A stretch of 41,667 bases of DNA from a virus, in the IMG/VR virus record IMGVR_UViG_3300047548_000780, positions 1-41,667 of that record. The stretch is one strand, 5' to 3'. The notes beneath the pieces were generated by a model that was not told the origin of the DNA, ran no database searches, and saw only the letters and a program-made list of their open reading frames with translations. The translations under genes were made by a program, and so were the position numbers. Positions 2,127 through 29,106 of the stretch are shown piece after piece; within the stretch, counting starts at the first letter, position 1; every line of letters begins with the position of its first letter.

Positions 2127-2675
2127 TTATTTACCCTTTAAACTTCCTGCACCAAGGGTGTCGATTGCGTTCCACTGTGAGTCTACGTCTTTTTTCAATA
2201 CTTGCATATCACGTTCTATGCCAACCATTCGCTCACGTGTTTGTGCCACGTCTTTGCTGATCTGTTGTACATCACGCAGTCCGCCAGTAACAGACTCCAT
2301 AGTGGTTTGTATTCTAGCAATAGTACCTTGCAGTTTTGCAACGTCATTGCTTGCTATTTGCGTTTGTAGCTCTTTGAGTGCTACGTCCTGCTTGCCTAGC
2401 CGTTCCTCGTTTTCTTTTTGCTTGTTTTGTAGCCCCTTAACCTCATTGGTTAAAAAGTCTACGTTCTCAATCAACTTTACTACTGGCTCGCCATCGGGCA
2501 TTTTTATCTCGCCTACTCGCTGCTCTAAGTTATCAATTCTATTGATAAATTTGCTGGCGGCAAATATGCCACCAGCAATCGTAGAAGCAAAACTTAGTAC
2601 CACTGCGATGTAAACACCTTTTAGTTTTACACCACCAACACTTAGTTCGGTGGATTCTAAGTCTAGCTTAGCCAT
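2127..2675 (-). CDS. Membrane-anchored coiled-coil protein
   Basis: This 182-residue protein has one membrane span at about residues 21-43 (VYIAVVLSFASTIAGGIFAAS). A long heptad-rich, charged region follows (about 45-170) and should form a coiled coil. There is no enzymatic motif. It starts 1 base into the end of the upstream exported-protein gene and precedes the spanins, so it is co-transcribed with lysis genes. It could be a structural or lysis-timing protein, but I cannot assign a function. Confidence 0.65.
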   Translation of the reverse strand: MAKLDLESTELSVGGVKLKGVYIAVVLSFASTIAGGIFAASKFINRIDNLEQRVGEIKMPDGEPVVKLIENVDFLTNEVKGLQNKQKENEERLGKQDVALKELQTQIASNDVAKLQGTIARIQTTMESVTGGLRDVQQISKDVAQTRERMVGIERDMQVLKKDVDSQWNAIDTLGAGSLKGK

Positions 2676-3505: not shown

Positions 3506-4016
3506 AATCGGGTCTCCGTTGTGGATTTTGTTGCCACCCTAAGGTAGCTTGCTTTCCTATGGTACCTAGGTAGGGACAAGGAGTCCCGGCCATGGCCATA
3601 GCTTCAAAAACACGTGCGTCTTGACAAAGCACTGCAACTGCAGCAATCTTTAGTCCAAACTCGTTTAGTGTTTTTGCTAGTTTTAGTAACTCGCACTGTG
3701 GGTCGCGTTTATAGCTACCCGCGCTAATGCCAATTACAGAACTTGAAACCGATCCTCCGTACCCAATTAAGCAGCTGTCGTTTCCGCCAGACATAAATGC
3801 GGGACTTATGGCACTGGGAGGTGGTGTAGAACCTGGTGCATTACCATTGTAAGTTGTTGAGTTAGTGGTACTTTGATTGTTGCTGTTATTAGCAACGTTA
3901 GTACCTTGTTGGTTATTAGAAAGATTATCCACCGTGGTGTTGCCACTGGTGTAGTTCTGCTGAGCCACGGCGGATAAGGAAACGGCTAGCGTGATAGTGG
4001 CTAGCCAGGTTTTCAT
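3348..4016 (-). CDS. Exported protein with conserved Cys-containing core
   Basis: This 222-residue protein has a signal peptide (MKTWLATITLAVSLSAVAQQ, cleavage near residue 18). A low-complexity Asn/Ser/Thr linker covers about 19-65. A conserved-looking core of about 75-150 contains DSCLIGYGGSVSSS, GISAGSYKRDPQCELLKLAKTL, AVLCQDARVFEAM and GTPCPYLG; the four or so cysteines suggest disulfides. The C-terminal 70 residues are polar and overlap the next gene in another frame. The start overlaps the preceding gene by ATGA. Comparable secreted proteins occur near phage lysis or tail genes, but the role is unknown to me. Confidence 0.7.
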   Translation of the reverse strand: MKTWLATITLAVSLSAVAQQNYTSGNTTVDNLSNNQQGTNVANNSNNQSTTNSTTYNGNAPGSTPPPSAISPAFMSGGNDSCLIGYGGSVSSSVIGISAGSYKRDPQCELLKLAKTLNEFGLKIAAVAVLCQDARVFEAMAMAGTPCPYLGTIGKQATLGWQQNPQRRPDYDANKELKPISQSAASASDDGTSLSDRFRASKRSNAANQQPTTGSDQSGKQQ

Positions 4017-4265: not shown

Positions 4266-7200
4266 TTAAAACATTAATAAAAATCCTGTGGGGCCAAGCC
4301 ATACCCAGCCATTATTAGTACCAGAATCCGTGTTACCGTTGGAAGTAAAGGCATTCCAAGTCGCACCTCCAGAGGCATTACAAAACTGTATATCTAAATA
4401 ACTAGCATTAATAGTGCCTGAAGTTTTTGAGAAGTAGTACTGCTGATTCACTGGATAAGTATCTTGGTTTTTTCTTAAGAATACTTTTCCGGTTGGTGAA
4501 CCTGATAAAGTAAACTCTTTAAAAGTAGTAGTTCTTCCAAACTGAAACTTAAAAGTTGCTGGAAATACGGTAGTCTCAATATTTTCATACGTGCTAGTAC
4601 CCAGGATAAATACTTCACCACTACCGGCATTAGAGATTTTTGGATATACTCTGCTTATACTTCCACCATCAAAATATTTTGCTCCTGTACCGGTAAACTC
4701 AATTTTGCCAGTTTCTGTATTTGTAGTAGTTAGATTAGTATTAGTAGCGCTCCAAGCAGAAGCACTACCACCGTCCATTCTAATCGTACCATTTCTAAAG
4801 TTGATAGTAGAAGCTGCCGTACCTCCGCTGTAAATACCGCCCACTAAAGTGCCACCATTTAAATCTATAGTACCAGCGTTTAGATTTATTGGGTATATTA
4901 CCGGAAAAGTATTTCCGTTTAGATCAAGTGTACCTGAGTTTATTTCTGTATATGTTGGCGCTCCGTTACCGCCAGGTATTAGTTTTAATATACCAGTACC
5001 TGCAAGTCTTAGTCTGTAAGGAGATCCTGAATTACCATTATTAGCTGGAGCATAGAAACAGTCTGTGCTACTTGTACCACGCCACTCTAGTACTTGACTA
5101 CTGTTATTACTAGTAGTCATACCAGCGTGACTAATGAAACTTTTATAGAATATTACGGTGCTAAACGAACCTGCCCACTGTCCTGTAAATGTACTATCAA
5201 ATACAACGCTCTTAACGTGTCCAAGAATACCAACAGTTCCAGCACCATTTTTAATTGTGTAACTTACAGTACCACTTCCATCTGCTGGCGCAGTAGTATT
5301 ACCGTGAGATATAGAATAACTAACACCTGAAGTTGTAGGTGTAAATATTACGTTTGAAACTTCAGAACAAGTAAACCCGCTAGCAATTTGAGTTGTCCAT
5401 GAGGTACAAGTAATACTACCACTAGTATCAAACGCTAAAGTCCTTGTATTAGTATAACTGCTACTAAAAGTTGTACAGGTAAGGGCGTAGTTACCAACAC
5501 TAAAATTACCACTGACCAGAAACACTGTATTTGTTATTGTTGTATTTGCCGCTAATGTAAACGTTACGGTAGGATCACACTGTATATTTAGTTGCGGTAA
5601 AACAACTGTACTAGGTAAGTTAACAATATAACTACCGGCATTATTGCCATACAGTACCAGTGTACCTGTGGTACAAGTAACCCCAGCAGGAATTACTATG
5701 TCCTTGTTTACATATAAAGTACCTAATGACAGCGTGCCTGTAAATCCTGTAAAATCTACAAATGTTTGGTAATTACTGTTACTTGTAAGTGATACAATAT
5801 CACTACCAGCAGACACCTTAATTGGTAAGCTTTGATTATTAGCAGGTGCTACCGAATTACCATAAGAAATAGTTCTAGTACCAGTAGACCCAGAATACGT
5901 ACAGTTTACGGCTCCAGTGCCGCTGTAAGAAAGATTATTTGGATTATCTAAACTTATTACAGTAGTATTATTGCTTGGTATAATTATGTTATTAGAGCCA
6001 AAATTAATTTTTCTTAGTGTAGTATAACTAGAGAAAAGTCTGCTACAAGTATAGTCGTATCCGCCTAGAGTAAAATCTCCAGTATATACGTACAGTATAT
6101 TATTTGAAGTTACAGAATTCTGAAGTGTAAGAGACGCATTAGTTTTCTTTCTAATTTGTACAATACCTAACGTATTGTAAGCTGTTAGAGTAGTATTTGT
6201 GTGTCCATATAAGTTTAGTTGTCCTGATAGTATGGTGCTTGCCCCCATAGATATATTTCCAAGCACTCTGGTAGTCTGAGAAAAATCTATAGTACCACTA
6301 TAGTTTGAAGCATTTAGATTACCTACATCATAACCCGGATGATCCCCCCCTGGAAATCCTATTGAGCCGGTACCCGTATTTGCATCAAGTATTATATTAT
6401 CTTGAGCATAAGGTATCTTTGTATCTGCGGCCCCACCACTGGTACTAGACCAGCGTATGTTGCTTATCCAAGTGCCGCTCGTAGTATTACGAGCATAAAC
6501 TGTTTTAGAAGCAGGAAATGAAATTCCTGCGTTATTACCACAATCACTAAACTCACCTGCAAGTGGTGTACCTGGACCAGCTAATACTATATTTGCAAAT
6601 GCTGCATAATTTAAGCTAAAGTTGTTTGCTGTTATAGTTGCTTGCGGGGCGTTGGGATTTATGTCCGTTACACCATCACCAAAAACTACTCCAGTAATCT
6701 TTACCATTCTCCAGTTAGACGTACTTGTAGGAGAAGTATATCCCGCACCATTGCAAGTAAACGTACCAGTAATAGTTTGATTACCCTCTACTAGCAACGA
6801 AATGGGTGCTCCGCCTACTGTAAGATTTTGGAATGTGTTGCTGCCATAAACTGCAGTGTTTTCTGCAAAAGCTCCACTTTGTACAGTAACACTACCATAA
6901 CTACCGCCACCACCTGCAAAGACGCCCTGACTTACGTTACCACAAGTAAGAGTGCCTGTATGTGTAACAGTTACGTTACTACCTGTAACGTTATAGTTAC
7001 CCAAAGATATAGTAATAGTAGAGGCCCCCAGCTGCATACTACGAACCGCAGTGCCTGTTGACGATATACCTTCACGACCAGTATAAATACTGTAGCCATT
7101 GGTAATAAATGTTCCAGCTAGTACCTGTATTCCTCCGTTGGAACCACCTACTGAAACAGCGCCCTGTAGTGACCACTCCCCACCTACTCCATCAAATATC

Positions 7201-7574
7201 AGTCTACCTTGTGCACTATTACCACCAGGCTGTATGGTTTTACCTGGAGTAGTGGCTTTAAACCTTAAGTTATAGATACCAGACGAACCTGTAAGCCCCA
7301 TTGCAGAGCTAATTACTAGATTACCATATACATTAAGGGTGCTACCAGTATTTAATGTACCAACAAATCCAGTACAGTCTAAGTTCTGGCATGCAAGTGA
7401 ACTATTATTAGCAGTAACCGTGTATGGTGCAGTTCCAGAGTTTGCATCAAAAAATACGTCATCTGACAGTGTCGGTACAGAGAATCCTCCAGCACCCCCA
7501 CTTGTATCAGACCAATTAGCGGTGTTAGTTGTACTCCAAGTACCAGTACCACCAACCCAATATCTATTTGCCAT
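4266..7574 (-). CDS. Large beta-repeat tail fibre / adhesin-like protein
   Basis: This 1102-residue protein is dominated by Gly/Ser/Thr/Asn-rich beta-strand repeats, as in right-handed beta-helix or adhesin-like phage fibres. It opens with MANRYWVGGTGTWSTTNTAN and a SVPTLSDDVFFDANSGT motif, a recurring N-terminal module of phage fibre proteins. A related module recurs near residue 365 (WISNIRWSSTSGG...DNIILDANTGTG), suggesting an internal duplication. There is no transmembrane segment or enzyme motif. It is the last large gene of the fibre block. A role in receptor binding is inferred from composition and context. Confidence 0.75.
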   Translation of the reverse strand: MANRYWVGGTGTWSTTNTANWSDTSGGAGGFSVPTLSDDVFFDANSGTAPYTVTANNSSLACQNLDCTGFVGTLNTGSTLNVYGNLVISSAMGLTGSSGIYNLRFKATTPGKTIQPGGNSAQGRLIFDGVGGEWSLQGAVSVGGSNGGIQVLAGTFITNGYSIYTGREGISSTGTAVRSMQLGASTITISLGNYNVTGSNVTVTHTGTLTCGNVSQGVFAGGGGSYGSVTVQSGAFAENTAVYGSNTFQNLTVGGAPISLLVEGNQTITGTFTCNGAGYTSPTSTSNWRMVKITGVVFGDGVTDINPNAPQATITANNFSLNYAAFANIVLAGPGTPLAGEFSDCGNNAGISFPASKTVYARNTTSGTWISNIRWSSTSGGAADTKIPYAQDNIILDANTGTGSIGFPGGDHPGYDVGNLNASNYSGTIDFSQTTRVLGNISMGASTILSGQLNLYGHTNTTLTAYNTLGIVQIRKKTNASLTLQNSVTSNNILYVYTGDFTLGGYDYTCSRLFSSYTTLRKINFGSNNIIIPSNNTTVISLDNPNNLSYSGTGAVNCTYSGSTGTRTISYGNSVAPANNQSLPIKVSAGSDIVSLTSNSNYQTFVDFTGFTGTLSLGTLYVNKDIVIPAGVTCTTGTLVLYGNNAGSYIVNLPSTVVLPQLNIQCDPTVTFTLAANTTITNTVFLVSGNFSVGNYALTCTTFSSSYTNTRTLAFDTSGSITCTSWTTQIASGFTCSEVSNVIFTPTTSGVSYSISHGNTTAPADGSGTVSYTIKNGAGTVGILGHVKSVVFDSTFTGQWAGSFSTVIFYKSFISHAGMTTSNNSSQVLEWRGTSSTDCFYAPANNGNSGSPYRLRLAGTGILKLIPGGNGAPTYTEINSGTLDLNGNTFPVIYPINLNAGTIDLNGGTLVGGIYSGGTAASTINFRNGTIRMDGGSASAWSATNTNLTTTNTETGKIEFTGTGAKYFDGGSISRVYPKISNAGSGEVFILGTSTYENIETTVFPATFKFQFGRTTTFKEFTLSGSPTGKVFLRKNQDTYPVNQQYYFSKTSGTINASYLDIQFCNASGGATWNAFTSNGNTDSGTNNGWVWLGPTGFLLMF

Positions 7575-7578
7575 ATTA

Positions 7579-7800
7579 TTACTCCAAGATTATTGGGTTA
7601 CCGTTTTTATCTAGTACAAGGTCACCATTTTCATCTAATTTAAATACAGGTTTGTGAGTAACAAGCCTAATCCACCTGTCTAGCCTGGCCTGCTTTGCTT
7701 CATGAATTTCTAATTCTGTTGGGTTCTCGTTGTCTTGGTATACTAAAGAATCCTTAAACAAGCCATATACTGTTTCAAATTCAAAATCAATTTGTTTCAT
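7579..7800 (-). CDS. Small acidic protein between fibre genes
   Basis: This 73-residue acidic protein ends with a short beta-hairpin-like repeat (KLDENGDLVLDKNGNPIILE). It sits between two fibre genes with gaps of 4 and 8 bases, so it is in the same operon. It might be a fibre assembly factor or chaperone, by location only. No family is recognised. Confidence 0.55.
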   Translation of the reverse strand: MKQIDFEFETVYGLFKDSLVYQDNENPTELEIHEAKQARLDRWIRLVTHKPVFKLDENGDLVLDKNGNPIILE

Positions 7801-7808
7801 ATATATCC

Positions 7809-8981
7809 TTAAGCTTGTGTAGCAACTGCAACTACATCCCAGAAAGTATCTTGAGAGTTATAAACCAAACCTATGTAAATAACTTTACTTGCAGTTGTTG
7901 TAGTAGGTAAAGCCGTACCGATAACTCTATACCCGCCGCTAGTAGTTGTCCAAGTAAGTGCACGGGCAGTGCCGTTGTCTTTAATGCGTAAGGTTAACTT
8001 TTGACCGTCTTTACCGGCTGCAGGAGCTGCAAATGTGGCTGCTACAGCTAGAGCTGTTACACTATATTGCGCAACTGTAATATCGGGGGTAATTGTAGAC
8101 GATGAAGCTATGCTTGCAGTACCTGCATATAACCCTACACCTGGTACTCGTAGTTTGGTAATACTTGCATTACCAAAAGTAATCTCATTGCTTACTGAAT
8201 CAGTAGTAGACGATGCGTTATATCCAATAATAATATTATTAGAACCGCTGTTTAAGTTATTAGTACCAGCGTTAGCGGCATTTCTGCCAATAACGACGTT
8301 ATTCGAACCTGAGCCAATATACTGACCAGCTTCAAAACCAATTGCAATATTAGCACCACCACCGCCAGTATTTCTAAGAGTATTTTGTCCAATAGCAATA
8401 TTACTGCTGCCTGTATTATCTCTTAGACACTCAATACCTATACCGATATTGCCATTACCTGTAGATAAGTTAAGTCCAGCATACTTACCTAATAAAAGGT
8501 TGTCATTGCCAGTTGTGACTGCTTTACCGGCCCAGTAACCTAAGAATACATTGGTTTCGCCATTACTCAAACCATATCCAGACTGATAGCCAATGGCAAT
8601 GTTACCAAAACCAGTGCCGCTTGAAGCCCCGTATAAAGCATATTGACCAATACCAATGTTATCTGAGCCTGGTGCCCTATAACCTGATTGTATGCCAAGA
8701 AAAACATTTCGACTACCTGTAGCGCTGTTTCCAGCACCGTAGCCAATTCCTACAGTATATCCGCCAGTTGTTATTGAATTTAGTGTTTGATACCCAATGG
8801 CAACATTTCCCTCTCCGCTAATGCTACCATTTCCAGCGTTTTGTCCTAATGCTATTGTCCAAGGAGTTGTACTTTGCGTTACACCTGTTAGAGAGGTAGT
8901 AGGCACAGCATTACCGTTAATAGTAACGCTGCCACCTACACCACTAATGTCGTTTGTTTGATGATTGATTGTAATCGACAT
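7809..8981 (-). CDS. Tail fibre with YadA-like head repeats
   Basis: This 390-residue protein has about fourteen turns of a 14-17 residue repeat of the type NVAIGYQTLNS / NIGIGQYALYG / NNVVIGRNAA, residues about 45-265. This is the left-handed parallel beta-roll seen in YadA-type trimeric adhesin heads. After the repeats comes a SNEITFGNASITKLRVPGVG segment that is paralogous to one in the 1150-residue fibre, then a beta-rich C-terminal domain (about 300-390). Trimeric fibre is the likely form. It follows a 98-residue gene after 3 bases and probably contributes to receptor binding. Confidence 0.78.
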   Translation of the reverse strand: MSITINHQTNDISGVGGSVTINGNAVPTTSLTGVTQSTTPWTIALGQNAGNGSISGEGNVAIGYQTLNSITTGGYTVGIGYGAGNSATGSRNVFLGIQSGYRAPGSDNIGIGQYALYGASSGTGFGNIAIGYQSGYGLSNGETNVFLGYWAGKAVTTGNDNLLLGKYAGLNLSTGNGNIGIGIECLRDNTGSSNIAIGQNTLRNTGGGGANIAIGFEAGQYIGSGSNNVVIGRNAANAGTNNLNSGSNNIIIGYNASSTTDSVSNEITFGNASITKLRVPGVGLYAGTASIASSSTITPDITVAQYSVTALAVAATFAAPAAGKDGQKLTLRIKDNGTARALTWTTTSGGYRVIGTALPTTTTASKVIYIGLVYNSQDTFWDVVAVATQA

Positions 8982-8984
8982 CTA

Positions 8985-9281
8985 TCAAACTCCTATACTG
9001 CCTGCCAAATCAGGTTGTTGCATTAACCAAGCATAGCATTTTGCTAAAAAAGTATCTCCGGTCTGAGCTTCTACTTCCGCTAGTGGTGCATTATAGCGTC
9101 TGAAGTCTACCTCGCGAATTTCATCATGCACAGGCTGGGTTGCATACCCTGAAATATCAATCATTACCGTATGTTTAGGTTCACCGCGTTGACGAGACAC
9201 TAGTGCGGTTGCAATTCTGAAGTAAGCTCCTGTAAAAGGCACGCCGAATTGTGAGTTTTGAATATTTGTTTGAATTGCCAT
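8985..9281 (-). CDS. Small protein between fibre genes, unknown
   Basis: This 98-residue soluble protein has mixed secondary structure. It contains TNIQNSQFGVPFTGAYFRIATA and a helical C-terminal half. It is tightly linked (10-base gap before, 3-base gap after) to two YadA-repeat fibre genes. Small proteins of this kind next to fibre genes can be adaptors or fibre accessory subunits. No function can be shown from sequence. Confidence 0.6.
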   Translation of the reverse strand: MAIQTNIQNSQFGVPFTGAYFRIATALVSRQRGEPKHTVMIDISGYATQPVHDEIREVDFRRYNAPLAEVEAQTGDTFLAKCYAWLMQQPDLAGSIGV

Positions 9282-9291
9282 TTATATCTCC

Positions 9292-12200
9292 TTAGGCGTA
9301 AGTTACTTCTGCTGTATCAACAGTAGCTACCCAGCGAATATTTGTTGCAGCAGCACCTGTTACAGTGATAGCTAAACTACCGTTTGTAGTGTCTGCCGAT
9401 AGTGCTATGGTCCAGCCAGGTACGTTTGAAAGCACAGTTAATGCACTGTTTACTAGTACAGTGGCAGCAGCAGAACCTTCTCTGCGAATTAATCCATCTA
9501 TTTTCCAAGCTGCTGAAGCTGTTCCAGCCGAGGACTGCTGACGAGCAACGACCATTCCTGTGAAGGCAATAGCTTCTCCATTTACAAGTGTAAGCTGGTT
9601 TGCTGCTGACTGAGCACCGCCATCTAGTGTAAGTACGGTTGCTGTTGCATCTGCTGTTTGACGGCGCAATACATGCTTACCAGCCTGTGCATCACCGTTT
9701 GCAGCAAATCTACCAGAGGCATATGAAAACTTACCATATTCATTAGCCACTGAGCGACTTCCAAAAGCGTTAGAGTAGTCTCCAGCAGCAGTGTTATTGT
9801 CTCCAACGGCTACAGCAGCTCTTCCAGAAGCTGTTGTAGTACCTAGATCACCTGTACCAATAGCCAAAGCTGAAATACCTGACGCTGTTGCTAAGGCCCC
9901 AAATGCTTGTGCTCTATTTGCGGAAGCATTAGTTAGGTATCCGACCGCATTAGAGCCAGTTCCAGTGGCTCTTGATACCCAACCAATTGCAATAGAATTT
10001 TGACCTGATGCTCCATAACTTGTAGTATTATTACTAACAGCCGCAGCAAAACTGTCCACACCACTTGCACGAGAACCACCAATTGCAATAGCCCCTTGAG
10101 CTACTGCTTGTGAGCCAGCGTAGTTAGAATCACAGCCTAATGCTATTGATGGTTTAGCTGTTGCTCCAGCGTTTAATCCTACAGCAGTAGCGTAATCGGC
10201 AGTAGCAGATGCATTTCCACCAATAGCTACCGTAGAATCTCCTGTGGCAGTTGGTCGCGTAAATCCTCCAGCCAAAGACTCTGCATATAAGCTGAAACGC
10301 TTTGCCGAGATTAATTTCCAGTTAGTGCCGTCGGATACAATATGAGCACCTTGGTTATGTCTAAGTATTAATGTATCTAAGTTATCTATGGTTTCTGAAC
10401 CGGCTGGGTCAATAGTTACGTTTCCAGAACCTGTGTTCCATAGGTAACAATAAAATCCAGCCCCTAGAGTAGCTGCTGATGTTAGTGATACTGTAAAAGT
10501 ATTGGCAGTAAGATTAATTACTTTACCTAAATCTCCAGCCACTACCGTATAAGTCCAGTTTTGACTATTAATGCTAAGAGCAGTTGGGCCTCCGGCACTA
10601 CCACTACTAGCTGAGGTAACCCTGCCTTTAGCGTCTACGGTAATATTTGCATTAGTATAGCTGCCTGCTGTCACTCCGCTGTTTGCAAGTGTGGTAGTAA
10701 TTGCTGTGCTACCACTACCGCTAACATCACCACTTAGTGTAATCGTTTGGTTAGCAGTAAGTGGTAGTGTGCTACTAGTCCAGTCTACACCAAGTCCAGG
10801 AATTCGGAATCTTGTTATAGCAGCATTACCTAAAGTAATCTCAAAAGATGCTGTTGATGACGAAGGTTCAGCAGCATTACCAATAATAATGTTTTGATTG
10901 CCGCTAGTTAAGTTAACGCTGCCGGACGATCCTGCTCTATTTCCTATTAAAGTATTATAAGAACCTGTTACCTCTTGCCCAGCTCGACTACCAAATATTG
11001 TGTTAAACTCTCCAGCGGTTAAACTGAAACCAGCATAAGTTCCGACTGCCGTGTTATGTTGACCATACTGTAGGGAATACAGCGACTGGTATCCTATGGC
11101 TATACAGTAGTTGCCGTTTTGATTCGTGCTATTAGCAAAACCAAAAGCTTGGTGCCCAATACCTACAGAGTATGCTGCGGACGATCGTCGCCCTGTTTGT
11201 GCACCGATAAATACGGTACCAGTATTTTGAACGTACTGTCCCGCACCATACCCAATAAGCACAGTATAATCATAACTACCTGCAGTACCTGTACCAGCAT
11301 TTGAGCCTATAACAACGTTAGCTGTTCCACTAATAGTTTGATACCTTAAAGCATTATAACCAATGGCTACATTGTCAGAGCTTTGTGTGGCGGAATTAAG
11401 GGCCTGATATCCAATTGCTGTATTGTAATTACCTAAAAACTGGTTTAAACTTGTTCCGGCACCATACCCAAGTGCTACAGTGTATGGTCCAGCACTACTA
11501 GTTACACCTGTTAAAGAAGTTACTGAACCACTACTAGCTGCCGTAATCCGGCCTTTTGAGTCCACGGTTATATTAGCTAAACTATACGTACCGGCAGTAA
11601 CACCACTATTTGCTAGCGTGGCTGCGCCTGTTACATTTGCGGTACCATCAAAGCTACCGCTTGTGTATGTAACGTCACCAGTTAAACTGATTGTTCGACC
11701 AGTAACAAGTTGTGATGCACTACCTACACCTGTTACTGCGCTTGGGGCTACGTTTTTCCAGTAAGCATTAGCACTATCATACTGTAGTAGGTTGTTATTT
11801 GCTACGCTGCTAATATTTACATTATGGAGTTCATCTAGTTCCCAGCCGTTGTTGATATTAATAAAGATACGGCCGCTACTTGCATTTACATGCAACACCC
11901 AGCCAATGAATACTGTGTGAGCAGGAGCACTTGGCCGAGTTGCCGTTAAGGCGCCAGCTGTTTGCGATAAGTATACAGGTGCACCTGCTGTGAATCCACT
12001 AGTATTTAAACCATTTACTACACCAAAAGTAGATACAAAGCCTTCTGCTCCATTTGCAATATCTTCTGTAGCAATACCTAACGTAGCTGCGCTAAGAGGC
12101 TCGCTGTCTGCATCCGCCAACACAACGCTAGGGCGCTGGCCTTGAGCACCCGCCACGGCAACTACACTACCATTTGTGATAGTTGCTCCAGTGCCGTTAT

Positions 12201-12744
12201 AAACACGTACAACGTTTTCTTGGCCAATCTGTAGATTTACATTGCCACCACTCAACCCTAGTGTAGCTGTGCCTTCACCAGCATCCCAAGTAATGCGACC
12301 TACTCCACTTGCAGCACCTGCAGCCGTATCAAGCTGTACGTAATCGCTGGTAACGTTTGCTACATCAAGAGCACCTGCGTCGCTAAGAGTAGCGGTACTG
12401 TTTTGAATCAGTTTACCTGTTGTACCATCAAAGCGAACTAAAGCATTATCAGTACTGCTAGCAGGGCCACTAACGTCGCCTGCACCAGCAGCAGTAGAAT
12501 TTTGCCACTTACCTGTACTACTGTTATAAGTTAAGTTTTGTCCGTTAGTAGGGGAAGTAATAGCAACATCGCCCAAACCAGAAAGATTACCAGCACCAAT
12601 AGTAATAATATTATCACTACCGTCACGTGTATAAAGCTTTTTGTCGGCAGTATTCATAGCTATTTCATACTGCTCAATATTAGCGGTTGTTGGTGGTGTA
12701 TTAGGTAACGCCGAGCGTCTTGGTTTAATTTTTGCTGTTGCCAT
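9292..12744 (-). CDS. Giant tail fibre protein with YadA-like repeats
   Basis: This 1150-residue fibre has an N-terminal module of about residues 1-55 (ANIEQYEIAMNTADKKLYTRDGSDNII). That module resembles the virion-binding N-terminus of phage fibres such as major tropism determinants. A beta-rich domain with VVRVYNGTGATITNG covers about 185-300. Next come GRTISLTGDVTYTSGSFDG repeats, YadA-like AIGYQAL repeats (about 430-650), and a second array of AVGLNAGA repeats (about 860-1010). The C-terminal beta domain ends TNIRWVATVDTAEVTYA. The ribosome site AGGAG follows a hairpin. Likely a trimeric receptor-binding fibre. Confidence 0.8.
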   Translation of the reverse strand: MATAKIKPRRSALPNTPPTTANIEQYEIAMNTADKKLYTRDGSDNIITIGAGNLSGLGDVAITSPTNGQNLTYNSSTGKWQNSTAAGAGDVSGPASSTDNALVRFDGTTGKLIQNSTATLSDAGALDVANVTSDYVQLDTAAGAASGVGRITWDAGEGTATLGLSGGNVNLQIGQENVVRVYNGTGATITNGSVVAVAGAQGQRPSVVLADADSEPLSAATLGIATEDIANGAEGFVSTFGVVNGLNTSGFTAGAPVYLSQTAGALTATRPSAPAHTVFIGWVLHVNASSGRIFININNGWELDELHNVNISSVANNNLLQYDSANAYWKNVAPSAVTGVGSASQLVTGRTISLTGDVTYTSGSFDGTANVTGAATLANSGVTAGTYSLANITVDSKGRITAASSGSVTSLTGVTSSAGPYTVALGYGAGTSLNQFLGNYNTAIGYQALNSATQSSDNVAIGYNALRYQTISGTANVVIGSNAGTGTAGSYDYTVLIGYGAGQYVQNTGTVFIGAQTGRRSSAAYSVGIGHQAFGFANSTNQNGNYCIAIGYQSLYSLQYGQHNTAVGTYAGFSLTAGEFNTIFGSRAGQEVTGSYNTLIGNRAGSSGSVNLTSGNQNIIIGNAAEPSSSTASFEITLGNAAITRFRIPGLGVDWTSSTLPLTANQTITLSGDVSGSGSTAITTTLANSGVTAGSYTNANITVDAKGRVTSASSGSAGGPTALSINSQNWTYTVVAGDLGKVINLTANTFTVSLTSAATLGAGFYCYLWNTGSGNVTIDPAGSETIDNLDTLILRHNQGAHIVSDGTNWKLISAKRFSLYAESLAGGFTRPTATGDSTVAIGGNASATADYATAVGLNAGATAKPSIALGCDSNYAGSQAVAQGAIAIGGSRASGVDSFAAAVSNNTTSYGASGQNSIAIGWVSRATGTGSNAVGYLTNASANRAQAFGALATASGISALAIGTGDLGTTTASGRAAVAVGDNNTAAGDYSNAFGSRSVANEYGKFSYASGRFAANGDAQAGKHVLRRQTADATATVLTLDGGAQSAANQLTLVNGEAIAFTGMVVARQQSSAGTASAAWKIDGLIRREGSAAATVLVNSALTVLSNVPGWTIALSADTTNGSLAITVTGAAATNIRWVATVDTAEVTYA

Positions 12745-12755
12745 TAATTTCTCCT

Positions 12756-12771
12756 GCCTATAGCGATAGGC
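12756..12771 (-). promoter_or_regulatory. Hairpin just upstream of fibre ribosome site
   Basis: On the minus strand the stem GCCTAT, loop CGCT, stem ATAGGC lies one base before AGGAG of the 1150-residue fibre. Its arms repeat the inner part of the terminator stem 21 bases upstream. It may stabilise the processed mRNA end or influence ribosome access. Confidence 0.5.
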
Positions 12772-12780
12772 GTTTTGTGG

Positions 12781-12812
12781 ATTTTTAAAAATGGGCCTAT
12801 AGAGATAGGCCC
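12781..12812 (-). terminator. Intrinsic terminator after 453-residue fibre
   Basis: On the minus strand an 8-bp perfect stem GGGCCTAT / ATAGGCCC with a 4-base loop is followed by ATTTTTAAAAAT. It starts 6 bases after the stop codon of the fibre gene. The short U-run suggests partial termination. Confidence 0.75.
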
Positions 12813-12818
12813 TTTATA

Positions 12819-14180
12819 TTAAGAAGCGTAAATTCCGCCATCAACTTGGCTGAGGGACACCGCACCAGCGCTAACACTGAAGTTTGTGCTATCAAAGCTG
12901 GCTAAACCAACTTGTGCAGTAGTAGCAATCTGAATGCTTGTATTGCCGGCAGCAGTTAAACGACCCTTGCCGTCAACGGTAAAAGTAGCGACCTGAGTAG
13001 CGCTGCCATAGCTGCCAGCTGTTACTGCGGTATTTGCTAGCGTAGCTGTACCTGTTACGTTTGCAGTGCCGTCAAAGCTACCGCTTGTGTACGTAACATC
13101 GCCGGTTAAACTGATTGTACGGCCGGTTGCTAAGGCAGTTGCTGTACTTGCGTTACCTGTTAAGGCACCTGTTACGTTACCGTATACGCGGCCAACGTTT
13201 AAGTCCTTGTTTAGATTCCAGCGGTCATCGGCACTTGTATATGTTAGTGTAGCTGCGGTAGCTGGGCCTGCAACTGTTAAACCTGCTCCGTTAGCTTGTG
13301 CAGCAGTAGTAGCGTTTTTAGCAACTGTAATATTTAGGTCAGCAACTTCTACAGTGGTCGAGTTAACTGTTGTAGTTACGCCTTGAACCGTTAAGTTACC
13401 TGCAATAACAACTGTACCTGTATCATCGCCGTGTGCAGCAGGGTCGATAGTGAAAGTGCTAGGGCCGCGTAGGTATCCAGTTAGTGTTGCATTGTTAAAT
13501 GTTACGTCGCTGGTCGTAGCAACTGCTTGACCGATAGCAAAACTTACTTGGTTGTTAGTAACAGTTGTAGTTACACCTGTACCGCCTACAAATGTAAGTG
13601 TGTCGGTACCAAGTGCAACTGCATCCGTACCTGTTCCACCAGCAATATTTAAAGTAGTGCTAATTGTTGCAGTTGAAACTGCGGTTACTAAACCCTTAGC
13701 ATTTACAGTAACTACTGGAATCGCTGTGCTACTTCCGTAAGTGCCTACATTGGTATTAACAGTAGCTAAGGTTGCCGTGCCGGTTACGTTACCGGTGCCG
13801 TCAAAGCTACCACTTGTATATGTAACATCACCGGTTAAGCTAATTGTGCGGGCAGTTTGAAGTGCAGTTGCTGTGCTAGCGTTTCCACTTAGTGTGCCGG
13901 TGATTGTGCCTGCGTTAAAGTTGCCGCTGGCATCACGCTTTACAATAGTGTTGGCAGTGTTTGCATTTGTTGCTGCACTTACCATATCGGTAAAGTACTT
14001 ACCGCCAATTACAACGTGGTTTGCCGCATTACCGCTAGTTTCTGTACCCATACCAATGTACAGGCGATCTCCACCATTACTACCGTTATCAGCAAGTGCG
14101 CTGTAGGCTAATTCGCCGGCAGCTAGTGTGCTTGGATTACCGGCAACTGTGGAACGTTTGATTCTGATAATAGAAGCCAT
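12819..14180 (-). CDS. Tail fibre protein
   Basis: This 453-residue protein opens with MASIIRIKRSTVAGNPSTLAAGELAYSALA, an N-terminal fibre module (tropism-determinant-like) that attaches fibres to the tail tip. GGDRLYIGMGTETSG follows, then low-complexity beta repeats. The segment RTISLTGDVTYTSGSFDG occurs twice (about residues 110 and 350) and again in the 1150-residue fibre. A beta-rich central domain (about 230-330) separates them. The C-terminus (AGAVSLSQVDGGIYAS) is short, without a chaperone domain. A terminator directly follows the stop codon. Confidence 0.78.
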   Translation of the reverse strand: MASIIRIKRSTVAGNPSTLAAGELAYSALADNGSNGGDRLYIGMGTETSGNAANHVVIGGKYFTDMVSAATNANTANTIVKRDASGNFNAGTITGTLSGNASTATALQTARTISLTGDVTYTSGSFDGTGNVTGTATLATVNTNVGTYGSSTAIPVVTVNAKGLVTAVSTATISTTLNIAGGTGTDAVALGTDTLTFVGGTGVTTTVTNNQVSFAIGQAVATTSDVTFNNATLTGYLRGPSTFTIDPAAHGDDTGTVVIAGNLTVQGVTTTVNSTTVEVADLNITVAKNATTAAQANGAGLTVAGPATAATLTYTSADDRWNLNKDLNVGRVYGNVTGALTGNASTATALATGRTISLTGDVTYTSGSFDGTANVTGTATLANTAVTAGSYGSATQVATFTVDGKGRLTAAGNTSIQIATTAQVGLASFDSTNFSVSAGAVSLSQVDGGIYAS

Positions 14181-14192
14181 ATTCTATTCCTT

Positions 14193-14447
14193 TTAAAATT
14201 CACCGCAATCAACCTGCTGCTGATTCAGTAGTGTTTTTGATATCCATTTTTGTGAGTTAGTGTCGTACACCAACACACTGCCGCTTGTTAAGCTGCTTAA
14301 ATTTACGTCCTCAAGCTCTGCAATAGTAGAAGCGCCTCGATCACCTTTTGGGCCAAGTAGTCCAGTTACTATTACTTCGCGAGTTTCTGGTTGGGAAACT
14401 ACTACTTGTGTTTCCGTGACCAATACTTTTTCTACTTCTGCTGTCAT
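14193..14447 (-). CDS. Short collagen-like hinge/fibre accessory protein
   Basis: This 84-residue protein has a beta-rich N-terminus, a short collagen-like run of G-x-y triplets (GLLGPKGDRGAS, about residues 29-40), and a C-terminal half with SGSVLVYDTNSQKWISKTLL. The latter motif is common in phage fibre linkers. It overlaps the upstream gene by one base and lies 12 bases before a fibre gene. A hinge or connector role between tail tip and fibres is inferred. Confidence 0.62.
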   Translation of the reverse strand: MTAEVEKVLVTETQVVVSQPETREVIVTGLLGPKGDRGASTIAELEDVNLSSLTSGSVLVYDTNSQKWISKTLLNQQQVDCGEF

Positions 14448-15031
14448 TATCTGGTCACCTCGCGAACTAAGGTAATGCTGCCAGAAGCTAGTGCAGTTAC
14501 TTCACCACCACTAATTAATTCCAAATCATACACAGCCGCCTTAAACGTAAATGTTTGAGTAGTTTCGTCTGGTATATACATGGTGATAGTTTTTGCCACA
14601 TTGTCTAGCAATATGCCACCATTTTCTGTGGTTAGACTGTGCAGTACGGTATCGCTATCTAGCTTAGCGCGAATCTGCATACGTGCAGTGTATCCAGTAA
14701 GCTGAACTGGCTGATTGTACTCTAACACGCCGCCGCTAGTGTAGGCGGTGAAGCCAAGACTATTAATCTGGTTTAGGGTAACTGTATCCGTTGTTTTATC
14801 GGTAACAGTTTGATAATCTAGTTGGTTAATTTCTTTCATACCGCCGGCACCAACCACCTTAACGCGCCAGCCTAGTGGAGCAGCGTGATTGGCTGCTGTA
14901 ATTACCACGGGTGCGCTTTTTGTAATATTTGTAATTGGTACGTATACTTTTGTAGACGATTCCCAACGCAATACTTGACGAAAAGTGCTGCCCTGATATA
15001 TTTTTAAATTTAATTTAACTGGTGAAGTCAT
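14447..15031 (-). CDS. Probable tail-tip/fibre-base structural protein
   Basis: This 194-residue beta-rich protein has LKIYQGSTFRQVLRW near the N-terminus, PVQLTGYTARMQIRAKLDSD in the middle and YDLELISGG...GSITLVREVTR at the end. That pattern recurs in phage proteins at the base of fibres, some of which resemble BppU-type N-terminal baseplate domains. It overlaps the collagen-like gene by one base. A structural role at the fibre attachment site fits its place. The exact function is not proven. Confidence 0.6.
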   Translation of the reverse strand: MTSPVKLNLKIYQGSTFRQVLRWESSTKVYVPITNITKSAPVVITAANHAAPLGWRVKVVGAGGMKEINQLDYQTVTDKTTDTVTLNQINSLGFTAYTSGGVLEYNQPVQLTGYTARMQIRAKLDSDTVLHSLTTENGGILLDNVAKTITMYIPDETTQTFTFKAAVYDLELISGGEVTALASGSITLVREVTR

Positions 15032-15033
15032 AA

Positions 15034-15378
15034 TTAAACCTTTCTTCTGGAAGTTGCTTGTCGCAACACGCTAACTTCATCAGTTAGGGCCGTGATCTCA
15101 GTTTGTAGACGTTGATTTTCTACGGTCAAGTTCTGCAGCTGCTTGTTAAGCTGTATAATTTCTTGGTGGAGCCTTCCCAGCTCCTCGCTAAGAGCCGTAT
15201 TCTGCTGGCTCATACGCTCCAGCTCAGACTGCATAAGAACTATTATATTAGTTTCTGCGCTAGTCGCTCGCCAATCTTTCAATAGTTTCTGAGCACCGAC
15301 GCTAACACCAATAACTGCTAAAGCAACCACTCCTAGTACTTGAATAATTTGTTCTGCGCTTACTTCAAACATTCGCAT
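15034..15378 (-). CDS. Membrane-anchored leucine-zipper protein
   Basis: This 114-residue protein has an N-terminal membrane span (about residues 10-28, IIQVLGVVALAVIGVSVGA). A long coiled coil follows (about 45-108) with regular Leu/Ile heptads, and the C-terminus is basic (RRKV). It is the first gene behind the strong promoter at 15495-15523, with an AAGGAG ribosome site near the ATG. It resembles the membrane coiled-coil proteins often found near phage lysis genes. Its function is unknown. Confidence 0.65.
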   Translation of the reverse strand: MRMFEVSAEQIIQVLGVVALAVIGVSVGAQKLLKDWRATSAETNIIVLMQSELERMSQQNTALSEELGRLHQEIIQLNKQLQNLTVENQRLQTEITALTDEVSVLRQATSRRKV

Positions 15379-15479
15379 AACTCCTTGCTAGTAGCAGTTT
15401 ATATTATTAAAACTAATGGTTTATTACTTTCTGTGATCTATTAGAGCAAAGCTCTTGTCAAGAAAATTTTTAAACACCT

Positions 15480-15506
15480 CTGTGATTCTTGTATATTATA
15501 TCACAG
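15480..15506. promoter_or_regulatory. Operator-like inverted repeat over the promoter
   Basis: CTGTGAT (15480-15486) and ATCACAG (15500-15506) form a 7-bp inverted repeat with 13 bases between them, straddling the -10 box and expected start point of the promoter at 15495-15523. A third CTGTGAT lies at 15431-15437 in the leader. This looks like a repressor or activator site. The spacing does not fit CRP. Confidence 0.45.
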
Positions 15507-15523
15507 GGGCAGGCAGTTGTCAA
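15495..15523 (-). promoter_or_regulatory. Consensus sigma70 promoter for fibre/lysis genes
   Basis: On the minus strand, TTGACA (15523-15518), a 17-base spacer and TATAAT (15500-15495) match the consensus exactly, and TGA before the -10 gives an extended -10. The start point should be near 15488. It lies just after a terminator and drives the 114-residue gene and the genes downstream. Confidence 0.85.
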
Positions 15524-15526
15524 CAT

Positions 15527-15556
15527 AAAAAAATACCCAGCCACAAGGACTGGGTA
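15527..15556 (-). terminator. Intrinsic terminator after S74 fibre gene
   Basis: On the minus strand the stem TACCCAG / CTGGGTA (7 bp, 9-base loop) is followed by a run of seven or eight T. It lies 7 bases beyond the stop codon of the S74 fibre gene and ends the tail-tip transcript. Confidence 0.85.
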
Positions 15557-15563
15557 CTTTAAT

Positions 15564-17051
15564 TTAAGCCAATTTTTGTTTGAGTTCTTCAATCTCACGC
15601 TGTAGTTGCAGCACTAGTTTTGCCAGCTCTACGGCACTTACCATGGCGGCAGCACCATAATTAACGCTTAACATACCTTCTGCGTCTGCAACAACTGCTT
15701 CTGGAAGTAGTTGTTGTAAGTTTTGTGCACTAATACCGGCGTATCTAATAGAAGTACCTACTCGAGTATACGTGCCAGACTTAATATTAGCTAAGTTAGA
15801 TACATAAGAGTTGGCATCTAAATAAGACCAATCGGTTTTTAGTCGTTCGTCAGAATACGCAGTAATGTTACCACTACCTGTTATATCGCCAGTTACATTT
15901 AATGTACTAGACATTGTAACTGCACCACTAAAACTACCTGTGGTAGCGGCTACACTGCCACCGCTTAAATTAGTTGCTGTGCCTGCTGTACCAGCACTAC
16001 CGCTTACATTACCAGTCACATTACCAGTTAAGTTAGCAGTAATAGTACCAGCGCTAAAATTACCACTAGCATCTCGCACAACTACCTTACTTGCTGTATT
16101 TGCACTGGCACCGTCTACAGCAATGGTTACTGCTGCGCTGCCATTGTACGAAGTACCAGTTAAACCTGTACCTATAGTTAAGGCGTTAAGTGTGCTCCCT
16201 AAAGACACACCTGATATAGTACTATTTGCTAGCGCGCTGTTTGGTATTGCGGACAATCTAGCGTTTGGTAAAGTACCGCTTGTTATTGCTGCTGCATCTA
16301 TACTGTTAGAACTGCCGATAGTCTTATTAGTAAGTGTTTGCGTGTCACTTATAGTAGCAACATCTACTCCTTCGATTTTTACGAAACCAGTACCTTTTGC
16401 TACTAAGTTTAAGCTTACATTCGCATCACTGCCTACTGCAGTAAGTTCCACCATGTTGGTAGAAATAGCATTGTTGACCCTTAAATAGTTTACAGCACTA
16501 GCTACACTATCAAATTCAAGTAGTTTATTTCCGTCTGCATCATCTATAGATCCGCCGTCAGCAAATCTTGGTCGTGTTAATGTTTTGTTACTTAGTGTGT
16601 CTGTTGTATCACGCCCAACCAGCGTAGTAGTGGCTGTTGGTAGTGTGATTGTACCACTATTACTAATACTACTAATTACTGGAGTAGTTAGTGTTTTATT
16701 AGTAAGAGTCTGTGTACCGGATGTACTAACAATCGCGGCACCGCCTACAGTACTGTTAGCCGCTAGAGACGCCGCCTGTGTAGTACTTAGTGTAGTAAAC
16801 GCTCCGGAGGCAGGGGTTGTAGCCCCTACCGTTCCGTTTATGTTTATATTGTAACTACTCGCTAAGTCTGCCCATGCAGTACCATTCCAGTTACGCCACT
16901 TTAGCCCAGATCTATCAAACTGTATTGTATTAGTGGGCAAGCCTGTAGAATCACTAGCTATGCCAATCGCCAGGTCGTCTAACCTGGCGTCAAGCTCTGC
17001 TAAAAAATTTACATAGCTGCTACTAATTGTTGGTAAACTATGATTTGCCAT
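15564..17051 (-). CDS. Tail fibre with S74 intramolecular chaperone
   Basis: This 495-residue fibre has a short N-terminal attachment region (about 1-30) and a long repeat region with SGTQTLTNKTLTTPVISSI, DTLSNKTLTRPRF and DTQTLTNKTIG motifs, typical of triple-beta phage fibres. The C-terminal peptidase S74 chaperone domain begins at S400 (SDERLKTDW). This domain trimerises the fibre and then cleaves itself off just before that Ser. It ends in a coiled coil (LAKLVLQLQREIEELKQKL). It follows the tail-tip gene after 15 bases and is terminated by a strong hairpin. Confidence 0.88.
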   Translation of the reverse strand: MANHSLPTISSSYVNFLAELDARLDDLAIGIASDSTGLPTNTIQFDRSGLKWRNWNGTAWADLASSYNININGTVGATTPASGAFTTLSTTQAASLAANSTVGGAAIVSTSGTQTLTNKTLTTPVISSISNSGTITLPTATTTLVGRDTTDTLSNKTLTRPRFADGGSIDDADGNKLLEFDSVASAVNYLRVNNAISTNMVELTAVGSDANVSLNLVAKGTGFVKIEGVDVATISDTQTLTNKTIGSSNSIDAAAITSGTLPNARLSAIPNSALANSTISGVSLGSTLNALTIGTGLTGTSYNGSAAVTIAVDGASANTASKVVVRDASGNFSAGTITANLTGNVTGNVSGSAGTAGTATNLSGGSVAATTGSFSGAVTMSSTLNVTGDITGSGNITAYSDERLKTDWSYLDANSYVSNLANIKSGTYTRVGTSIRYAGISAQNLQQLLPEAVVADAEGMLSVNYGAAAMVSAVELAKLVLQLQREIEELKQKLA

Positions 17052-17066
17052 ATTCTAAATCTCCTT

Positions 17067-20000
17067 TTAGTAGCCTGTTATTGACCACGATACTTTTACG
17101 CTAGGTATTCTAACTCCTGACGTATTAAATGCGTATACTCTCATACTGTTTGCATAAGTACTAGCACTGCCGCTGGTATTCGCAACCGGCATAGAAACAC
17201 TATAGTTAGAAGCATTTATCTTTGTTATTGTGTATACACCAGTTACCCCAGCCCCACTAATAAACGCTAATCTAACTGCCTGACCAGTCTCTAGGCCGTG
17301 ATCGGAAGCGGTGGTAACTACACATACTCCGTTGGTAACTGAGTAGGTAGCTTGTATCACGTCATCTTTAAAGTCATATACAGTTATACATGCTGTACTA
17401 GAAGAACCTGTTAACACAACCGAAGCGATATCAACAAACTCTTTACTAAAGTTTACAATTGTACCATTAGTATCTGTGCTTAATGCTGTGACGCTTCCGC
17501 TATCACTAATCTGTTTATTATCTAACTTTATAACTAGTCCATGAATGGCGTAAAGTGGCTTATCAATAGGTACAGTAGTATCTATTTGCTGAACTTCTAT
17601 ACGTACTTTTACATATCTAAATCCAGTTGCAAAAATGCTGCTACTAGCTACCTCTGAACTCCAGGTACTGCCGTTTGCAGAATACGAAATGTAAGTTAAT
17701 ACTCGTAAATCGCCAATTTGCCCGTCTAATTGGTCTCCGTCCAGTGTGGTAGTGATCTGACTAGCACCAATTAAGGTTTCAAAATCTACTACTTCTTGAT
17801 ATACTCCTATTGGAAGTCCTGGTTGTAATAAGTATGGGTATCCAGCACTTATTTGATCTTGTGGACTTGACCAAGCATCCCCAAAAACACTTGGATCACC
17901 ATTTTGAAAGTGCTGTTCATAAGTTTCAGTCGTGTTAACAGGTAGTACAACTAGCTTATTATTAGGATCTTTTTTAGCATTCGTTAGTGTTACAGTAGAA
18001 AGGAAAGGCTGGTCTCCTAAACCAGGTTGACTTTCTAAAGTACTGACAAATTCTGCATAAAATTGATAATTTGGAGGCTGTGAAACTTTACGAGTAATAC
18101 TTACAGGATCAGACTCATTTCCTTCTGTATCTACTGTAGCTAGCCAGTAGGTGTATTCACCTGCGCTGTTTTCAGTTACAGTAGTAAAAGTACCGGACTT
18201 TTCACCAATTGGTTCTGCTGTCGCCCAAACACTTCCCTTTTTAATAAGCACATGTGAAATAGGTAGCGTACTAATTGCTGGTAGTTCCCAGTACAGCAGT
18301 ACAGTGTTATCAATTACTTGTGCGCGGAAAGTATTAACATTTATAGGATTGGGCTTCTGTATTAACACATCAAACTGTCTCCAGTCTGAATAGTTTGATA
18401 GTAGATTATCCTGGGTACGAATACGAAATACTCTAGTTCCAGGATCCCAGCTGGCCGGCAGAGTTATAGTATTGGACTTCGTGAATGCTACAGGAGTCCA
18501 GGTTTCTGGGCTTGTACTACTGCGATATTCTAGTTCATAACCATTTAATCCAAATACAGGCTCTACTTTACTCCAAGACAGTGTAACAGTTGCATTAGTT
18601 AAACTAGTATCTTGAAAGCTAATTTGAGGACTGTTAGGCATTGGCGGTTTTGCCAATGTATAAGTTATTGGAGTAGAGCTAGAAGAACTATCACCTGTTG
18701 TATCTGTTGCACGTATGTACCAGGTATATGTTCCGGACGCTTTACCTACTAAGCTAATAGGCGCTGTTGTTGTCGTACCAGACCACAATACACCACTTAA
18801 CATGTCCCAATTTTCATCGGTTTCTCTGATCTCGTAGTCGTTTATAGGTAGGTATCCTTTAACATAAGTACTAGGAGCGGACCAATTTACTAAAATATTA
18901 GTTTCTTGTGGAATAGGTGCACCAGTTATTACTACTGGCTGTGGGGCATATTTTTCTACAAGCACATAACTTGACCATGCGCTAAGATTGCCTGCTAAGT
19001 CACTGGCGCGTACACGAACTTTTGCTGTATCTTCCTCAAATACTTTATCAGTCCATAAAACTTCTGTTTCTACACTAGTAGAAGAAACTTTGAAAGTTTT
19101 TGTAGTAGCAATTGGGTTAACATACTGTAGTTCTACTGTGTATTCGCCAATAGGCAGTGCCCCACTTACAGGTGTGCCGGGTAGCCAACTAAATATAGCT
19201 GTGGTTGTAGTTTTTGATCTGCCGTATGCATAGTCTATATTTACTGGAACTGCAGGCCCTGGTAGAGTATATGTTACCGCAATCCAGCTAGTACTAACGT
19301 TTCCTACTACGTCATAGGCACGAACATAGTAAGCTGTTTCTTCATTTGCTATAGGTAGTTTTGTTTTACAAGTAGTTGCTGCACCTCTAAAAATTGCTGT
19401 AGAAGTAACTAGCGGCTCATCAGCAAGTATTCCTGCTGTACGTCTTGCTGGTTCTGCATATACCTCATACCCGCCAATATCTCTCTCAGGGGAGCTAGCC
19501 CAGTTTAGGGTAATTGTTAGCGATATAGGATCTAGTGTTGGTTGCAACAACCCTGTTACAGGACCTGGTCTTGAAGTTTTACCTATTACAGTATGTAGTA
19601 CTGGTGCACACCACGGACCAAGTGTACCTGTTTCAGTTATATATCTTGCACGTATCTTATAAAGCACACTATCATCTACCCCCTCTAGTAAGACTGAACC
19701 TGTTCTAATTGGTACTATAACACTATACTGCCAATTTTCATCATTGTCGCTAGCTTCGTCGTACTGTATCTCTATGTGAGATATAGACTTAGGTAGATCT
19801 TTTGGATTATTGTAGGGTACACTTATATTAGAAATTAGCGCACCGCTAGAAGTTGTTGTAAGTACGCTTTCATCACTTACTATATTTGCTGATATTAATA
19901 CAGGTGTATCTTTAACAGTATCAATTAACTTCTCTGGCACTATGGTCATATTAGGATTATATGCAGGAATTTGTACATACTCTTCTAATACTACATTATA

Positions 20001-24213: not shown

Positions 24214-24216
24214 ATT

Positions 24217-28995: not shown

Positions 28996-29058
28996 AGTTT
29001 CTCCTGGCTACCTTTTGCTCAAACCCAAAAAATTTAGCGTGAGCTTGCAAATATCACC

Positions 29059-29087
29059 ATTATATCATACAGGCATAGTGGTGTCAA
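29059..29087 (-). promoter_or_regulatory. Consensus sigma70 promoter for tape measure operon
   Basis: On the minus strand, TTGACA (29087-29082), 17 bases and TATAAT (29064-29059) match consensus exactly, with TGA giving an extended -10. The start is expected near 29052, about 56 bases before the tape measure ATG. It sits immediately after a terminator. Confidence 0.85.
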
Positions 29088-29106
29088 TGCAAAAAATTTT
29101 ATGCGT

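Follow-up and report, generated by a model that had tools for sequence, protein, structure and literature searches.

The question raised by this locus is how neighbouring tail-fibre genes that carry related repeats come to vary, whether by recombination among the genes themselves or by exchange on a larger scale. The locus lies in the virus record IMGVR_UViG_3300047548_000780 of IMG/VR, whose 41667 bases, the whole stretch of DNA that was analysed, are called the window below. Five fibre-like open reading frames of 495, 453, 1150, 390 and 1102 residues are present there at the sizes given in an earlier note on the sequence, which took all five to share repeats and possibly to recombine; genes are named here by the length of their products. 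These genes, the shorter ones among them, the J/hub gene, the repeat units and the boundary elements all lie on the minus strand. In our assessment, the lateral tail-fibre locus of this siphophage is probably an exchangeable, insulated transcription unit that has been moved as a block, with repeats of about 60 residues, the AB units, recombining inside it.

The evidence for exchange comes from contig L101, the closest relative of the cassette. Its 114, 194, 84 and 453 proteins are 93, 86, 84 and 94% identical to those of the window, and the N-terminus of its 1150 protein is 89% identical up to the point where the L101 contig ends. Outside the cassette, the identities are 47% for p121, 34% for p176, 46% for the tape measure and 34% for J (over 61% of its length), and six other loci (L012, L260, L009, L100, L007 and L008) are all nearer to the window than L101 in p121 and p176. 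The DNA of the two contigs is about 91-100% identical up to 15564 and cannot be aligned beyond it; there L101 carries a 467-residue gene in place of the 495 gene; the 495 protein has no match to its product. As this comparison shows, phages that are otherwise distant appear to have exchanged the cassette as one block, joined to its new surroundings at a terminator.

That terminator (15530..15560) has a 13-pair stem and a T run, ends the J/495 transcription unit and is the left limit of the L101 homology. It is followed by a perfect sigma-70 promoter (15495..15523), TTGACA-N17-TATAAT with TG ahead of the -10 element, which opens the fibre cassette. The arrangement recurs in most of the 32 loci that were left for a boundary count once 13 duplicate loci, 114 matches starting past residue 25 and loci with less than 200 nucleotides (nt) upstream had been omitted. 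Ahead of the 114 gene, a promoter matching at least 10 of 12 positions was found in 28 of them (12 of 12 in 20), a terminator in 26, and a terminator followed by a promoter in 24; at control positions upstream of the 453 and 194 genes, a promoter was found in 1/28 and 1/30, respectively. Back to back, the two elements would insulate the cassette from the J/hub operon, and the cassette would be expressed from its own promoter.

Homology between some other loci ends around the same place. Twenty-eight core loci, picked by hand from those of the boundary count, gave 305 pairs with at least 900 base pairs (bp) of common cassette, and 172 of these align over the 114 gene. The left edge of homology was found beyond position -100 of the 114 start in 42 pairs, and 38 of these 42 edges fall in the region of the terminator, between -150 and -250. 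The pair L120/L154 is 87.1% identical over 5 kilobases (kb) and has 460 bp of left homology, and L119/L154 has 585 bp of it beside a cassette of 85.5% identity. L127/L131 (84.5% in the cassette) shows the same pattern, but with just 2.5 kb of left sequence to compare.

Several observations weigh against this reading of the boundary. In 130 of the 172 pairs the edge is at or inside the 114 gene, because these pairs are divergent. L119/L120 has a cassette of 86% identity and yet keeps 4.9 kb of left homology at 70%. For the window itself, the junction is crossed by a single relative. The clustering of the edges could also come in part from fast evolution of the gene ahead of the cassette. Moreover, three further perfect promoters are found on the minus strand of the window, at 40172, 37462 and 29087, and therefore the promoter element is not unique to fibres. 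Finally, the metagenome contigs, all of them, could be chimeric assemblies; in one version of such an artefact, either the L101 or the window contig would fuse two phages at a common promoter sequence. The conserved boundary element would lend itself to such a fusion, L101 is a metagenome contig, and the junction in the window is not covered by any further contig. However, replicate pairs from other metagenomes argue against chimeric assembly, the same homology edge is seen in other pairs, the core loci shown have their genes in a regular order on either side of the junction, and the internal synonymous patches described below are far from the junction. We thus consider an assembly artefact quite improbable, and retain the exchange of an insulated cassette as the preferred reading.

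The four perfect promoters (15523, 29087, 37462 and 40172) all conform to TTGACA-N16-18-TATAAT and are in the late region, and none would be expected by chance. The one at 29087 precedes the tape measure gene behind a terminator-like stem (by eye), and two of the four stand behind such stems. It may be, judging from the sequence, that in this phage the late genes are generally split into separately promoted operons for the host polymerase.

What travels in the cassette is a constant core followed by variable fibres. A 453 homologue is found together with a 194 or a 114 homologue in 42 of 257 loci; with stricter coverage and later loci added, the 453 protein is conserved beside the 194 protein in 39 loci, which correspond to 35 contigs, some near-identical (L094/L101/L259, L121/L261 and L115/L265 are identical contigs). 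None of the 495, 1150, 390 and 1102 proteins reaches 80% coverage in any of the 39 loci. In the core loci shown, the gene order is constant, namely a variable gene, 114, 194, 84, 453 and then variable fibres. Since the 453 protein is kept in this fixed order and the other four are not, it is the protein that stays constant while the others vary. The population data support the recombination that the earlier note had proposed, although the main event appears to be the swap of a whole insulated cassette, and the 453 protein belongs to its conserved core. Although it bears two of the three repeats first noticed, the 453 protein is, to judge from its distribution, part of that core and not a variable receptor binder.

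The first gene of the cassette, 114 (15034..15378), opens it in nearly all core loci, and its product gave coiled-coil-type matches only. Its apolar N-terminus resembles a membrane helix by eye, and matches to Rz/spanin-like proteins are weak only.

The next gene, 194 (14447..15031), encodes a putative fibre-collar or adaptor protein, with an Ig domain like those of BppU and T5 p132 and an FCCH-like insert at about residues 26-105. Its AlphaFold2 model has a predicted local distance difference test score (pLDDT) of 93.5, and the Ig-like domain has the BppU_N fold, matching T5 chain 7qg9_L with Z 11.3 (117 aligned residues, root-mean-square deviation (rmsd) 2.9) and DT57C chain 8hqz_T with Z 11.5 (116 aligned, rmsd 2.6). 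From its length and the common-core title, we infer that 7qg9_L is p132 of T5. A sequence relative is present in the PDB (26dk_M, expect value (E) 5e-29), named only 'Structural protein'. The 194 gene adjoins genes that are fibre-like by sequence, which is the neighbourhood of a p132-type gene. Because of its fold and gene place, the modelled 194 protein is most likely a fibre collar like T5 p132. For the inserted domain, the best match is the FCCH domain of ubiquitin-activating enzymes (Z about 13), and the insert region is also matched, with Z 9.3-9.4, by a tail-tube chain of phage T1 and a head-to-tail interface chain of phage FCWL1.

In most core loci an 84-residue linker protein containing GPKGDRG (14193..14447) is encoded between 194 and the 453 gene (12819..14180). 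The 453 protein, with its conservation and two AB units, would form the conserved stalk. Its AlphaFold2 model counts against confidence in this role, being poor (pLDDT 63.9), so the stalk remains a proposal; the sole match of the family profile is a 40-position stretch of the phage Dec protein 6e3c_C (E 2e-5). Family members range from 426 to 627 residues, and in several of them about 70-180 residues are inserted in the repeat or close to it.

Turning to the repeats, the three 50-mers described in the earlier note at 11648-11697, 13072-13121 and 13801-13850 were recovered with pairwise identities of 45/50, 43/50 and 43/50. They sit within longer repeats: in a blastn self-comparison the hits span 97 nt at 85.6% identity, 92 nt at 78.3% and 122 nt at 78.7%, with E from 1.6e-25 to 1.1e-14, which excludes a chance origin. 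The claim that all five genes share repeats was too broad: four of the five share something, but the repeat itself is common to only two, 453 and 1150. The 495 and 453 proteins have a weak likeness in a single 75-residue stretch (E 8e-7), and between the 1102 and 1150 proteins nothing in common was detectable (best E 0.73).

The protein unit behind the repeats has two halves: the first, A, consists of RTISLTGDVTYTSGSFDG and the residues on to TLA, and the second is called B. Searched with a profile of this unit, the window yielded four copies, two in each protein. In the 453 protein, unit 1 (13668..13850) covers residues 111-171 and contains the 50-mer 13801-13850, and unit 2 (12939..13121) covers residues 354-414 and contains 13072-13121. 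In the 1150 protein, unit 3 (11530..11697) covers residues 350-405 and contains 11648-11697, and a degenerate unit 4 (10603..10767), overlooked in the earlier note, covers residues 660-714. Units 3 and 4 flank the YadA-like array of this protein on both sides, and correspond to the DNA repeats 11527-11621 and 10600-10694 (family D4), which are 75% identical, in frame and spaced exactly 927 nt.

Likeness of this kind could be old. If the AB units arose by an ancient duplication and selection on the protein kept them alike, no recent recombination between copies would be needed. The copies in the window are indeed nearly identical as proteins. In synonymous redraws of 28-codon units, the pair formed by the second 453 copy and the 1150 copy had 72 of 84 nt identical against 61.9 expected (P 0.0016), which argues against such a history; the remaining two pairs (P 0.046 and 0.08) are weakly above expectation and are compatible with it. 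As only one pair is clearly above the synonymous null, much of the DNA identity of the repeats stems from protein identity. The occurrence of the AB unit in 101 of 279 loci also suits an old origin.

The evidence for more recent exchange comes from comparisons across the 453 family. Over the 3.7 kb common to the window and L101, blocks of synonymous codon identity of about 0.90 alternate with blocks of 0.54-0.66 (permutation p 2e-4), and both 453 units fall within low blocks. The B half of unit 1 is of the type TVN...VNAKGL in the window and NSG...VDAKGR in L101, and across the family both B types are found at both unit positions. These unit comparisons rest on a set that omits 16 sequences, namely 9 duplicates or near-duplicates, 3 over-long sequences, L159, and L127, L131 and L134, which were omitted for want of a comparable first unit. 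Unit types were compared in 24 genomes that have unit 1 as well as unit 2; L108 was further omitted, as was unit 2 of L262 and of L264. Of the 24, 17, hand-picked so that the highest whole-gene identity was 0.80, served as representatives for a test of concerted evolution. In this set, the A halves of 453 units 1 and 2 were more alike within than between genomes (identity 0.719 vs 0.602, p 2e-5), and their synonymous excess over codon usage is also greater within genomes (p 0.005), which speaks against ancient duplication with selection alone.

Not all the data point in this direction. In the B halves, no concert is seen in the amino acids (p 0.17) and the synonymous effect is weak (p 0.036), and the window's own two 453 units share the same codon at 13 of 27 positions against 11.2 expected, which is little synonymous excess. 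Homogenisation between the two genes was seen in the window only, the 4 further loci that offered usable pairs showing none, which again fits an old duplication; the mean over all 8 cross-gene unit pairs was 0.588, against 0.566 between loci. This test omitted 16 duplicates and unit matches below 40 bits or shorter than 45 residues. Cross-gene homogenisation as a general rule was thus rejected. On balance, a purely ancient origin of the repeats seems to us unlikely, though it deserves serious consideration. Under the preferred reading, the AB units would be structural repeats whose A half is kept alike within a genome and whose B half is switched between two types, and short-tract homologous recombination would be the likely cause of the pattern.

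Reshuffling is also seen in the 1150 protein (9292..12744), which consists of an exchangeable N-terminal module (residues 1-340), an AB unit, the YadA-like/EITxGN array (10786..11520, residues 409-653, between AB units 3 and 4), a second AB unit and a YadA-head C-terminal part. Most or all of residues 1-340 recur at 53-63% identity in L095, L096, L097 and L098, each time with a different continuation, which in two of them consists of collagen-like repeats. In all four the match stops at residue 331-340, shortly ahead of the AB unit at 350, and the C-terminus of L098 resembles that of the window's 390 protein (by eye). By comparison, then, recombinants whose two sides of a conserved motif have different relationships are present. 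The earlier note had held that a lack of recombinants and length variants in population data would tell against recombination; both kinds were found, in the cassette exchange with L101, the length variants of 453 and the chimeras of 1150.

Fibre-like genes with common segments in one block are typical of loci diversified by retroelements or by inversion, and a dedicated diversification system might accordingly lie behind the variation. Searches of 22 records, which may be incomplete, with positive controls, found neither a reverse transcriptase (PF00078, 0/22) nor a resolvase/invertase (PF00239, 0/22), and the block has no long inverted repeat, the longest arm reported being 29 nt at 72%. We therefore rejected a diversity-generating retroelement, as no reverse transcriptase was found in those possibly incomplete records, and an invertible tail-fibre segment, as within the same limits neither a serine invertase nor a long inverted repeat was found. 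A dedicated system of either kind is very improbable here.

The 1150, 390 and 1102 proteins would be the variable outer fibres. As the earlier note described, the 390 and 1150 proteins have in common a YadA-like array ending in EITxGNAxITxxRxPGxG, with 35% identity over 296 residues (E 1e-29). The 1150 protein contains PF05658 repeats as expected of a YadA head, at 30.5 bits against a curated cut-off of 25, in 3 stretches. In the 390 protein (7809..8981), no family, PF05658 included, was above the curated cut-off, its link to the 1150 array being the sequence alignment; besides the paralogous YadA-like/EITxGN array it has a widespread C-terminal domain. The 1102 protein (4266..7574), a putative distal fibre, has no family in Pfam, PHROGs or NCBIfam and no repeat in common with its neighbours; its N-terminus, MANRYWVGGTGTW, recurs in many phages. 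In several of them (L026, L027 and L277) this N-terminal module is present twice per protein, for example at residues 1 and ~1020, which suggests an internal duplication. For the 98-residue protein encoded between the fibre genes (8985..9281), no family was found. The 495-residue tail fibre (15564..17051), ahead of the terminator and outside the cassette, ends in a Peptidase_S74 chaperone (PF13884, 28.0 bits against a curated cut-off of 22, residues 400-453). The gap that separates the 453 gene from the 1150 gene contains a perfect hairpin, GGGCCTAT...ATAGGCCC, followed by a T run (12793-12812); it might determine how much stalk is made relative to outer fibre.

Taken together, similar blocks in otherwise very different viruses and reshuffled repeats make it appear that fibre parts are traded between viruses, and such reshuffling could putatively alter the choice of receptor, as would be needed for the multiple receptor specificities suggested in the earlier note. 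A more specific and more tentative proposal is that freshwater siphophages have plug-in side tail fibres with two levels of exchange. The terminator-promoter would be a docking seam that joins cassettes to unrelated tail modules and guarantees expression by the host RNA polymerase in any recipient, and the AB repeats in the stalk and its neighbour would be inner seams for gene conversion and domain exchange. We put forward this combination, all parts jointly, as possible but doubtful. If the boundary did serve in this way, its sequence would allow fibre cassettes in metagenomes to be detected and delimited automatically, and there would be a simple answer to how mosaic fibre loci stay expressed after transfer. 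In any case, the locus offers a testable anatomy of the trade in host-recognition parts, with the positions of the seams and a constant part (promoter, adaptor, stalk) set against a varying one.

Elsewhere in the window, the genes follow in the minus-strand order terminase, portal, head protease/major head protein, connectors, major tail protein, tail chaperones, tape measure, J/hub, fibres and endolysin. The J/hub protein (17067..23321), which served as a flank in the incongruence test, has an N-terminal NlpC/P60 domain and is 39.7% identical over nearly its whole length to J of Curvibacter phage P26059A. As Limnohabitans phage DC31 moreover resembles parts of the fibre block, a freshwater member of the Comamonadaceae is the likely host, judging from these resemblances. 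A megablast search of the fibre block against the phage collection gave no match. Profile searches of genome contigs gave no match for the 194 alignment and two partial matches, in metagenome-assembled genomes, for the 453 alignment, and thus no prophage host was found by them. Two relatives end within J: L003, which comes from a different metagenome, matches 14 kb of the window (19318-33321) with 99.98% identity, and L002 is 85% identical over window 17888-25017. Just past the fibre block, 276- and 222-residue proteins (2675-4016), whose genes overlap at 3348-3505, appear by eye to have signal peptides, and the 222-residue type is also found near core loci L130 and L134.

The locus can be compared with several known systems. 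In work ascribed to Tetart in 1998, distal tail-fibre genes of T-even phages are said to have recombined between conserved motifs. As in those fibres, conserved motifs are the likely seams of exchange in the window; unlike in the T-even case, the genes that carry the repeat are a conserved stalk-like one and the one next to it, and exchange involves an entire cassette preceded by a terminator-promoter. In cyanophage S-TIM4, according to excerpts of PMC6224464, ORF108 is a structural protein with a YadA domain, and its identical regions were inferred to have recombined during growth on new hosts. Both cases involve a YadA-type structural protein, but as excerpted that study is one of experimental evolution in a cyanophage, whereas the evidence from the window is comparative. 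A survey across phages, as represented by parts of its text, found recent domain shuffling to be concentrated in tail fibres and spikes (PMC10684548); it is pitched at the survey level, and the insulated fibre cassette is a feature of the window. Morons, as outlined in part of PMC6469090, are likewise independently transcribed acquired genes, in temperate phages.

For the collar, excerpts of PMC10038345 describe T5 p132 as a dodecamer that bears the L-shaped fibres and resembles BppU, and see in the genes for p140 and p132 a landmark restricted to the T5-like family. The window's 194 protein has the same Ig/BppU-like fold as this anchor of lateral fibres, unlike which, as described there, it has an inserted FCCH-like domain. 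The modelled fold would extend the T5-collar-like adaptor to phages outside the T5 group. Limnohabitans phage DC31 (PQ492658), a cultured freshwater phage according to parts of PMC12195039, has a 453-like protein with 70.8% identity over residues 1-190 and, like the window, a 1102-type fibre beside it. It differs from the window in that 194 is matched in part only and 114 is unmatched, and it has a perfect promoter near the end of the 453-like gene, ahead of the distal fibre. Searches of an open-access library turned up no account of a lateral-fibre cassette that is insulated and has a conserved terminator-promoter. Fibre mosaicism is well documented, as excerpts of PMC10684548 and PMC7468147 attest. 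Modular fibre exchange as such is therefore already known, and the newer part is the insulated boundary together with the collar-plus-stalk core.

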